A stretch of 64,000 bases of DNA from Neotamlana nanhaiensis (lineage in GTDB: Bacteria; Bacteroidota; Bacteroidia; Flavobacteriales; Flavobacteriaceae), in contig NZ_JTDV01000001.1 in the NCBI RefSeq assembly GCF_000943555.1, positions 248,001-312,000 of the forward strand. Direction: 5' to 3'. This document shows, in pieces, positions 56,424 to 60,210 of the stretch. Under the pieces are notes generated by a model that searched no databases, was not told the origin of the DNA, and saw only the letters and a list, made by a program, of their open reading frames with translations. The position numbers and the translations under genes were made by a program. The first letter of the stretch is position 1. Every line of letters begins with the position of its first letter.

Positions 56424-56506
56424 GTCATTGCTAATGCAGTGAAGCAATCTGCTTATTTTTGAGTTCCAATTTAAAAGATTACTTCGTCCTACCTCCTCGT
56501 AATGAC
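56424..56506. repeat. 83-bp intergenic repeat, copy 1 (GTCATT...AATGAC ends)
   Basis: It starts with GTCATTGC and ends with TACCTCCTCGTAATGAC; the ends are inverted copies. The 3' half contains TTACTTCGTC. A second element of exactly 83 bp with the same ends and 3' half lies at 60128-60210. It abuts the stop of the RNA methyltransferase gene (56508). Confidence 0.7.
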
Positions 56507-58604: not shown

Positions 58605-58636
58605 ACCAATTGGCTGTTTTTGTGACCATTTTTTTA

Positions 58637-59311
58637 ATGACTAACTTTATTTTACCCATACTTGCCGTTATTTTAGGTGTTATTTTGGCCTTTATTACCA
58701 AATCGCAAAAATCGTGGAACACCAAGCTCCTACTCTCGTTTAGTGGTGCTTTTTTGTTGGCATTAACGCTTTTTGAGTTGTTGCCAGAAGTGTATCATCA
58801 TTTAGAGGCTAAACGCATTGGTTTGCTTATTATGTGCGGTATTTTGTTGCAAATTGTTTTGGAATTATTCTCGAAAGGTGCCGAACATGGGCACGTGCAT
58901 ATTCATAAAGATGAAGCCAATTTCCCATGGTTATTATTTATAAGTTTATGCATTCATAGTTTTTTAGAAGGCTTCCCAATACACGAACATAACGATATGG
59001 TTTACGGCGTTTTGGTTCACAAAATTCCTATTGCGACCTTAATTACCGTGTTTTTATTACACTCGAAGTTTACGAAATTACAAATGGGTTTATTTTTGCT
59101 TGTTTTTATGTTTATGACGCCTCTGGGAACACTTATTTCAAATTTATCGAATTTACAGGAAAGTACTGTTTTAAGCATCAATGCGATGGTAATTGGTATA
59201 TTTTTTCATATTTCGACCACCATTTTATTTGAAAGTAGCGACGGACATAAATTTAATGTTTCAAAATTTGTCGCTATTATTTTAGGGGTTGCTGTGGCTT
59301 ATTTGATGTAA
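58637..59311 (+). CDS. ZIP-family divalent metal transporter
   Basis: The 224-residue inner-membrane protein has about eight helices and ZIP-like features: FELLPEVYHHLEAKR near 53, a His-rich loop (EHGHVHIHKDE, about 80-90), and CIHSFLEGFPIHEHND near 105, with metal-binding His and Glu. The ATG at 58637 is preferred over a TTG at 58610. It probably moves zinc or a similar metal; the ion is inferred from the family. Confidence 0.85.
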   Translation: MTNFILPILAVILGVILAFITKSQKSWNTKLLLSFSGAFLLALTLFELLPEVYHHLEAKRIGLLIMCGILLQIVLELFSKGAEHGHVHIHKDEANFPWLLFISLCIHSFLEGFPIHEHNDMVYGVLVHKIPIATLITVFLLHSKFTKLQMGLFLLVFMFMTPLGTLISNLSNLQESTVLSINAMVIGIFFHISTTILFESSDGHKFNVSKFVAIILGVAVAYLM

Positions 59312-59318
59312 TTTTTTT

Positions 59319-59346
59319 GTCATTCCGCGCTTGATGCGGAATCCAT
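59319..59346. repeat. left palindromic terminal repeat of the GIY-YIG element
   Basis: GTCATTCCGCGC and GATGCGGAATCCAT form an internal hairpin (ATTCCGC with GCGGAAT). The whole repeat is an inverted copy of 59656-59684. It ends 5 bases before the GIY-YIG ATG. Confidence 0.8.
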
Positions 59347-59351
59347 AAATC

Positions 59352-59654
59352 ATGTATAATCGACAATATAGTTTTTATGTTTATATTCTTTCAAACAAAA
59401 AGAATGGCACGCTCTATATTGGAATGACAAATGATTTAGAAAGGCGTATGTTTGAACATAAAAATAAACTTGTTGAAGGTTTTACTAAAAAATATAGTTT
59501 AAACAAACTCATCTATTTAGAACATTTTCAATATGTTAATGATGCTATTAAAAGAGAAAAACAGTTAAAAAACTGGAAAAGACAATGGAAAATTGGTTTG
59601 ATTGAAAAAGATAACGCTGATTGGAAAGATTTATCTTCCGATTGGTTTAACTAA
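59352..59654 (+). CDS. GIY-YIG nuclease family protein
   Basis: The 100-residue protein is a single GIY-YIG domain: FYVYILSNKKNGTLYIGMTN (about 8-27), the catalytic Arg in LERRMFEHK (about 29-37) and the catalytic Glu in AIKREKQLKNWKR (about 69-81). The family cuts DNA at one strand or at branched structures. The 5 bases between the left repeat and the ATG leave no room for an ordinary promoter, so it must be read from the upstream ZIP gene or from within the repeat. Confidence 0.92.
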   Translation: MYNRQYSFYVYILSNKKNGTLYIGMTNDLERRMFEHKNKLVEGFTKKYSLNKLIYLEHFQYVNDAIKREKQLKNWKRQWKIGLIEKDNADWKDLSSDWFN

Positions 59655-59655
59655 A

Positions 59656-59684
59656 ATGGATTCTGCGTCGTAGCGCAGAATGAC
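59656..59684. repeat. right palindromic terminal repeat of the GIY-YIG element
   Basis: ATGGATTCTGCG and CGCAGAATGAC form the inverted partner of 59319-59346, with ATTCTGC/GCAGAAT as internal hairpin. It starts 1 base after the GIY-YIG stop. Confidence 0.8.
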
Positions 59685-59697
59685 AAAACGAGAACAT

Positions 59698-60126
59698 ATG
59701 TTTAGCAAAGAAGAATCAAGAATATTACGACAAGAATTCTGGACCAGTTTTGGAAAATCGTTTCCAAGAAAATGGATTTTATACGATACAAAATTAAAAG
59801 GCTTCAGTTTTAAATTTCATTTCGATACCAAAAGTGCTTTAGTCGCGCTGGATGTGGAAGACGATTTGGAATTCCGCATTAAATATTGGGAAAAATTAGA
59901 AGCTTTAAAATCGATTTTAAAAGATGATTTTTTACCCGATGCCATTTTTGAGGAAGAATATTTTTTAGAAAACCACAAAGAAGTTTCTAGAATTTACGTG
60001 TCTTTAAATGAAAAAGTGTCTATTCACAATAAAAATACTTGGCAAGTGGTTATGGAATTCTTCAATGAAAACATGAGTCTTTTTGAAGCCTTTTTTGAAG
60101 ACTATAAAGATGTTATTGAAGGGTAG
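59698..60126 (+). CDS. DUF4268 domain protein
   Basis: The 142-residue protein (MFSKEESRILRQEFWTSFGK at the start) matches the DUF4268 family, short proteins related to a domain found beside some restriction or nuclease modules. The catalytic function is unknown. The ATG at 59698 is chosen because the upstream ATG at 59680 lies within the terminal repeat of the GIY-YIG element, which may have separated this gene from its own leader. Confidence 0.78.
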   Translation: MFSKEESRILRQEFWTSFGKSFPRKWILYDTKLKGFSFKFHFDTKSALVALDVEDDLEFRIKYWEKLEALKSILKDDFLPDAIFEEEYFLENHKEVSRIYVSLNEKVSIHNKNTWQVVMEFFNENMSLFEAFFEDYKDVIEG

Positions 60127-60127
60127 T

Positions 60128-60210
60128 GTCATTGCGAATTACGCCCTAGCGTAATGTGGCAATCTCATTAAATTAAAGGGTTACTTCGTCGTTACACGCC
60201 TCGTAATGAC
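60128..60210. repeat. 83-bp intergenic repeat, copy 2
   Basis: It has the same length, ends (GTCATTGC... and CCTCGTAATGAC) and 3' core (TTACTTCGTC) as the element at 56424-56506, while the centres differ. An additional internal palindrome (ATTACGC...GCGTAAT) is present in the left half. It fills the gap between two convergent genes. Confidence 0.7.

Follow-up and report, generated by a model that had tools for sequence, protein, structure and literature searches.

REPs are common repeats of bacterial genomes, and those of the GTAG type have RAYTs. According to the excerpted text of PMC2817692, RAYT genes are flanked by inverted REPs with which they coevolve, REP number follows the presence of the enzyme, and pieces of the 3' end of the gene occur between REPs. 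CGTC-type REPs, on the other hand, were without a transposase and without association with transposase genes in the available portion of the 2013 survey of tagged REPs in more than 80 species, which left their mobiliser open (PMC3733652). The same portion (Di Nocera et al. 2013, PMC3733652) describes CGTC REPs as having a CGTC or TGTC tag, a stem of 8-9 bp nearly always starting with AT, a loop of 4-5 bases and a tail that is mostly CCA, and as forming dimers that are mainly tag-outward (HH).

No link of GIY-YIG genes with REPs was found in the titles and abstract openings of the literature that we searched, which had preprints and most subscription journals outside its range. RayT and a GIY-YIG gene are merely named in one table of clade-specific genes in the excerpts of PMC9465073. 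None of the words in the excerpts of the 2025 RepRanger paper (PMC12306157) starts with "nuclease", "RAYT" or "transposase"; the excerpts of a 2021 TnpA-REP paper (PMC8266576) do not mention GIY-YIG.

Here we describe a GIY-YIG nuclease gene between two hairpins in a window of 64,000 nucleotides from contig NZ_JTDV01000001.1 of Neotamlana nanhaiensis. This unit is probably, though far from certainly, a REP-associated element that resembles a RAYT but has a GIY-YIG nuclease as its enzyme, with tag-outward CGTC-type REPs as its cognate substrates. We show that gene and hairpins are associated, that the tags point outward, that enzyme and repeats are cognate, that gene-less copies are dispersed and that the site is occupied in some relatives and empty in others; mobilisation is the part that we infer.

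Anatomy and site of the unit

The whole unit occupies 59319..59684 (366 bp, + strand) and was delimited by sequence, flank alignment and folding. It consists of a left REP hairpin, the GIY-YIG gene and a right REP hairpin, with the GTC tags outward. The gene (59352..59654, + strand; PF01541, E 5e-18) encodes 100 aa and is the only one between the inverted hairpins, in agreement with the first-pass annotation. The left hairpin (59319..59345, + strand) reads GTC-ATTCCGCG-CTTGA-TGCGGAAT-CCA, with one G-T pair in the stem, and was recognized by sequence, folding and the CGTC-REP anatomy of PMC3733652. The inverted right hairpin (59657..59684, - strand; sequence and folding) reads TGG-ATTCTGCG-TCGTAG-CGCAGAAT-GAC. 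In both, the tag (T)GTC is unpaired, the stem has 8 bp starting with AT and the tail is CCA, while the loops (CTTGA and TCGTAG) have 5 and 6 bases. With the tag TGTC, an 8-bp stem, a short loop and the tail CCA, the hairpins of the unit fit CGTC-type REPs. As single-stranded DNA of the + strand, both fold better than 200 of 200 shuffles (z -3.1 left, -4.2 right); on the other strand, 4 of 200 shuffles fold as well as the left hairpin. The left flank aligns with the reverse-complemented right flank at a score of 38, and mismatched flank pairs score at least 34 in 1.1% of cases and at least 40 in 0.5%.

The left neighbor of the insertion site is a ZIP transporter gene (58637..59311, + strand; PF02535), its start set by eye where the list of open reading frames has a TTG at 58610. 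The right neighbor is a DUF4268 gene (59698..60126, + strand; PF14088) whose start is conserved in relatives, and the unit ends 13 bases before this ATG, just as had been noted. A DUF4268 start at 59680, given by a longer open reading frame, was rejected as a mechanical extension into the hairpin, relatives starting at the position of 59698. Two 83-bp repeats nearby, at 56424..56506 (sequence comparison) and 60128..60210 (sequence comparison and folding), neither assigned a strand, had been suggested as possible non-autonomous relatives of the unit. They are gene-less tag-outward doublets of another REP class (GTCATTGC...GCAATCT) with little in common with the unit beyond GTCATT, and derivation from it was ruled out. 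The first folds no better than shuffles (36 of 200 fold as well) and has seven further partial matches in the N. nanhaiensis genome; the second folds better than most (4 of 200 as good).

Residues Y11, Y22, G24, R32, H36, E69 and N88 of the nuclease are invariant among 43 sequences, and we take them to have catalytic roles in the window protein. The nearest structure to its AlphaFold model (pLDDT 88.9) is the UPF0213 protein 1zg2 (Foldseek, E 6e-5), the sole match with E below 0.001; weaker matches are Slx1, another UPF0213 protein and UvrC domains. Structure-selective cutting, if the enzyme has it, would suit a hairpin substrate. A match to TIGR01453 falls below the cut-off of that family. 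The window gene has dN/dS values of 0.065 and 0.072 against two orthologous copies (dS about 1.6), and the ratio is 0.00-0.15 in the 8 non-saturated of 13 GIY-YIG gene pairs. These ratios indicate that the nuclease gene is under purifying selection.

DUF4268 is present in 35 of the 60 genomes searched, and we looked at 29 loci besides that of the window. In 22 of these 29, the gene directly upstream of DUF4268 is ZIP; the two are separated by about 3-150 bp without a GIY-YIG gene, so that the empty sites which the first-pass annotation had named as support were found. In three genomes of the same genus the unit is absent and the gap holds decayed hairpin-like sequence. At the ZIP-DUF4268 site, the unit with both hairpins occurs in three named species: Seonamhaeicola sediminis, with a right hairpin that belongs to a different class; Ichthyenterobacterium magnum; and Flaviramulus basaltis, with a shortened open reading frame. 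The protein is 81-83% identical. Since the site is common to species of three genera, the unit appears to have been inserted long ago and to have been gained or lost patchily. Outer flanks are also related across genera in two groups of loci (L006/L019/L021 and L007/L017/L022/L038/L040). Together with the shared site of the window unit, this suggests that the gene transposes rarely if at all. Comparison by eye of the window junctions with the diverged empty sites revealed no target-site duplication.

Gene-less doublets made of variants of the unit's own two hairpins were found in relative G032, whose ZIP-DUF4268 site is empty. Two such doublets have the hairpins 13 bp apart, and a third has a degenerate mate. 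The spacer of one contains 8 bases, TAAAATAG, that are identical with the stop codon of the I. magnum copy and the bases behind it, a short and A+T-rich match. In genome G061 a doublet is present at three sites, and at two of these it is identical. Of the 25 class-C genomes, only 3 have the strict doublet pattern.

These observations bear on the possibility that the hairpins are substrates or regulatory or terminator elements in domesticated hairpin processing, repair or autoregulation, with no mobilisation today. The purifying selection, long residence at fixed sites and the weak structural matches to Slx1 and UvrC are in line with such a role. COG2827 is a label for small GIY-YIG proteins like UPF0213. 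Caulobacter crescentus has three small COG2827 genes, UvrC-like endonucleases to which no role is assigned, and the SOS box reported for one of them would also suit a function in repair (PMC1839093, in the text available). A domesticated function is nevertheless difficult to reconcile with patchy presence (36 of 60 genomes) and empty sites, with dispersed gene-less doublets and with decayed and tandem copies, and we consider it improbable.

GIY-YIG genes and hairpins across genomes

Two sets of loci were compared. The family-level set covers 60 genomes, that of N. nanhaiensis included, with a homolog at E 1e-5 in 36, and holds 86 gene records, 5 of which repeat an already seen protein; matches of fewer than 50 profile columns were dropped. 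The cross-phylum sample consists of the best 80 of at least 562 confirmed relatives, picked by protein similarity alone. It gave 82 genes, 80 of them testable, with none from locus L187; three of its loci are the same site as the window unit, and it may overlap the family-level genomes by a few species. At the family level, the left flank scores at least 30 against the reverse-complemented right flank in 33 of 86 records, compared with 2.0% of mismatched pairs. The corresponding figures for the cross-phylum genes (best 80 of at least 562) are 51 of 80 and 13.8%.

A strict detector was then defined by GTC, a stem of at least 7 bp, a loop of 3-12 bases and an outward tag. Among the best 80 of at least 562 relatives, it finds a hairpin on both flanks of 37 genes, in 16 named phyla of 26 sampled, on at least one flank of 62 and on neither flank of 18. 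The gene thus recurs together with its two hairpins at further loci, other phyla included; the expectation that the repeats would always lie on both sides proved too strict. Family-level genes have strict hairpins on both flanks in 8 of 82 cases (0 of 27 controls), and many repeat classes in that set have long or branched loops. In a plasmid collection with 34 matching records, strict hairpins accompany the gene on one or both sides at 7 of 10 loci examined, 3 of them having it on both, and 3 loci have none. One GIY-YIG relative without strict hairpins, L267 on plasmid p1 of Planktothrix agardhii, has an MmeI-type restriction enzyme on one side and DISARM drmA on the other. Phage carriage of GIY-YIG relatives was considered and rejected, no match at E 1e-5 being found among 50,697 phage records.

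It could be argued that REPs collect in intergenic space and so end up near any small intergenic gene, and background REPs do occur beside other genes (among 52 space-matched controls, on the left of 9 and on the right of 8). However, strict hairpins are present on both flanks of only 5 of 183 other genes of the same loci (4 of 176 with a second choice of controls) and of 2 of 52 controls with free space on both sides, short of the 37 of 80 (best 80 of at least 562) for GIY-YIG genes (Fisher 2.5e-8 for the space-matched comparison). Small-size controls gave 1 of 54, and the tightest control, 60-160 aa with free space, 1 of 13 in a small sample. Outward hairpins peak sharply near the gene: each flank has on average 0.60 within the nearest 100 bp and 0.11 within the following 100 bp, falling to 0.01-0.05 per 100 bp at distances above 300 bp. 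The bias for outward tags is 0.60 against 0.17. Inward-tag hairpins on both flanks were found in 10 of 80 cross-phylum genes and 3 of 183 controls. Other GIY-YIG clades are mostly without hairpins, with an outward GTCA on each flank in 1 of 16 compared with 29 of 62, and the cognate specificity described below likewise speaks against intergenic bias, which we regard as a very remote explanation. The association of gene and hairpins is general.

These other clades, mostly of about 80 aa in flavobacteria, have tRNA genes close by in the loci scanned, which are 10 of 12 (L035, L061, L065, L072, L080, L081, L084, L085, L086 and L089; L036 and L088 were left out of the scan). In some, another tRNA-like match lies at the opposite side, and some are tandem. 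They are possibly a separate, tRNA-associated GIY-YIG element.

The cross-phylum hairpins share the anatomy of CGTC-type REPs. The detector demanded GTC and a stem of at least 7 bp in the 99 hairpins from the best 80 of at least 562 relatives and left the preceding base free; this base is T or C in 94 of 99 (TGTC 68, CGTC 26). Stems of 8 bp account for 97 and stems of 9 bp for the other 2; the loop has 4-5 bases in 86, and the tail is CCA in 51. Stem covariation is seen in class-E repeats, where a stem position that the search pattern leaves free is Watson-Crick paired in 52 of 59 repeats in the first part of the list, against 21 expected. Among the species listed in the 2013 survey (PMC3733652), Azospirillum lipoferum has a GIY-YIG gene with such REPs on both flanks and Sinorhizobium meliloti one with such REPs on one flank; Caulobacter crescentus is CGTC-positive in the portion of the survey available (Di Nocera et al., PMC3733652). 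In A. lipoferum 4B (L261), identical CGTC REPs lie on both sides of the gene, between sufB and sufC.

Repeat classes, nuclease clades and copy numbers

The genome of N. nanhaiensis (4.02 Mb in 37 contigs) contains four GIY-YIG genes at E of at most 1e-3, the window gene and those at L006, L007 and L008, and all four lie between inverted hairpin repeats. For L006 and L007 this was judged by eye because the copies are imperfect, with alignment scores of only 20 and 21. The window gene, L006 and L007 are flanked by variants of one repeat class, and the most diverged gene, L008, by a longer class (GTCACTTCGAGT...TATCGAGAA). Each exact window hairpin occurs once in this genome, where many copies had been anticipated, and a wider pattern gives 22 matches of mixed type. 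A RAYT or IS200 element as the present mobiliser was rejected, since PF01797 (Y1/RAYT) has no match in the N. nanhaiensis genome; it is present in 21 of the 60 genomes searched.

Across genomes, genes with more similar proteins also have more similar flanks. When flanks were permuted within genomes, the observed correlation of r 0.366 compared with 0.051 +- 0.025 and was reached in 0 of 2000 permutations (78 genes, 21 genomes with at least two). With a stricter exclusion of orthologous sites (57 instead of 36 related-flank pairs) r was 0.367, and a host effect was discarded as the cause of cognate specificity. Repeat classes were assigned by motif, one motif being loose; left and right classes are equal in 40 of 46 labelled loci, against 16.4 expected. 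On a tree of 155 proteins, 87 of them labelled and 68 set aside, repeat class changes 14 times, compared with 37.9 +- 1.5 under shuffling. The 53 labelled cross-phylum proteins, shuffled within phylum, gave 9 changes against 14.5 +- 1.3, with 1 of 300 shuffles as low. By these tests on sequence, repeat class evidently tracks nuclease clade rather than host.

Of 45 loci chosen for copy counts, all but two were used, and two of them share a genome. The 25 class-C genomes have a median of 9 class-C (range 1-146) and 0 class-E repeats, while the 17 class-E genomes have a median of 0 class-C and 10 class-E repeats. After subtraction of two locus copies per genome, the repeats of a genome's own class are the more numerous in 32 of 42 genomes and the less numerous in 4 (p 6e-4 and 5e-5), namely the more numerous in 18 of 25 class-C and 14 of 17 class-E genomes, with the reverse in 3 and 1. 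The genomes of L177 and L197 have 115 and 146 class-C copies. The GIY-YIG enzyme and its flanking REPs thus coevolve as in RAYT/REPtron systems, and abundance follows class, with exceptions. Class-2 counts give a mixed picture: genomes G002 and G006 have 9 and 10 class-2 repeats without a close cognate gene, which counts against the unit being an element of this kind. Genome G048 has 68 class-2 repeats, those listed all being GTCAGTTCGAGTG and many lying in pairs and arrays, together with PF01797 matches, and no GIY-YIG match with the window or L008 protein as query; repeats can therefore exist without the gene.

Two further loci drew attention by their arrangement. At L075 (G016:C15:33388-37072), class-2 REP doublets form an array with one every 150-180 bp or so, resembling a BIME cluster with the gene included; inside are two GIY-YIG genes, 1036 bp apart, that encode an identical protein. 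At L052/L009 (G022:C20:45756-46633), one full GIY-YIG gene is accompanied by two truncated tandem copies.

The GIY-YIG family is a classic homing family. The main rival to our reading is a homing-type passenger, that is, a nuclease that cuts REP doublets and whose gene was inserted between the REPs of an existing dimer, the REPs being spread by other means; cognate specificity would then be target specificity. The TIGR01453 match, though below cut-off, and the REPs without a gene in G048 are compatible with a passenger. The HH dimer is a common CGTC arrangement in the available portion of the 2013 survey, so that insertion into a dimer would give the anatomy of the unit (PMC3733652). In the same portion, however, no mobiliser was known for CGTC REPs, and PF01797 is lacking from N. 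nanhaiensis as noted above. Repeats also track enzyme clade within genomes, and the G032 spacer TAAAATAG, short and A+T-rich as the match is, fits an internally deleted unit and not a pre-insertion target. We therefore find a homing-type passenger unlikely, and prefer an element whose nuclease acts on its own REPs.

Proposed explanation and described systems

That the unit resembles a REP/RAYT arrangement with another enzyme, as first suggested, holds for a GIY-YIG gene between hairpins and for cognate repeats, both far more widespread than had been noted; it does not hold for copy number in the genome itself, which is low, and the insertion is old. In the element that we favor, the nuclease would recognize the extruded hairpin, single-stranded or cruciform, by tag and stem and would nick it at or near the tag. 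GIY-YIG enzymes hydrolyse DNA and form no tyrosine-DNA intermediate, so host replication or repair would finish excision, copying and insertion. REP doublets may spread rarely and the gene-bearing unit more rarely still, the enzyme being kept by purifying selection for long periods at fixed sites.

We give even chances to a broader proposal, in which the dedicated enzyme so far missing for the CGTC REP superfamily is, in bacteria of many phyla, a small GIY-YIG nuclease. The process would be transposition-like without a transposase, a hydrolytic, structure-selective nuclease and host repair spreading hairpin doublets. The phyla concerned would be Bacteroidota, Pseudomonadota, candidate phyla, Chloroflexota, Planctomycetota and others. 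If true, the question of the CGTC-REP mobiliser would be open to direct test in laboratory strains, REPs would have two unrelated kinds of enzyme system, and it would become possible to study how DNA spreads by a route that involves no transposase. A likely substrate could also be assigned to many genes that now bear no annotation beyond "GIY-YIG nuclease family protein".

By sequence and fold, the closest solved relatives of the nuclease are UPF0213 and other small GIY-YIG proteins (1zg2, 1ywl) and Slx1. Unlike the unit, these have no REP association in the literature examined, and the clades of about 80 aa are mostly without REPs and lie beside tRNAs. Free-standing GIY-YIG homing endonucleases of the I-TevI type are another system for comparison and share the catalytic domain family with the unit nuclease. 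The unit differs from them in having no DNA-binding extension and no intron, in ending in inverted hairpins and in having dispersed repeats.

The REPtron/RAYT system, TnpA-REP with GTAG-type REPs, is like the unit in that a small nuclease gene lies between two inverted REPs, and both systems have cognate pairs of enzyme and repeat as well as dispersed gene-less REPs and doublets (Nunvar 2010, PMC2817692, in the excerpted text). The RAYT enzyme is a Y1 HUH transposase of the IS200/IS605 type, whereas that of the unit is a PF01541 GIY-YIG nuclease with repeats of the CGTC type; the unit is not a RAYT because the defining Y1 enzyme is absent. The CGTC REP superfamily, as described in the available portion of PMC3733652, matches the unit in tag, stem, loop, tail and tag-outward dimers. 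There these REPs have no association with a transposase gene, whereas the unit carries a nuclease gene inside the dimer.
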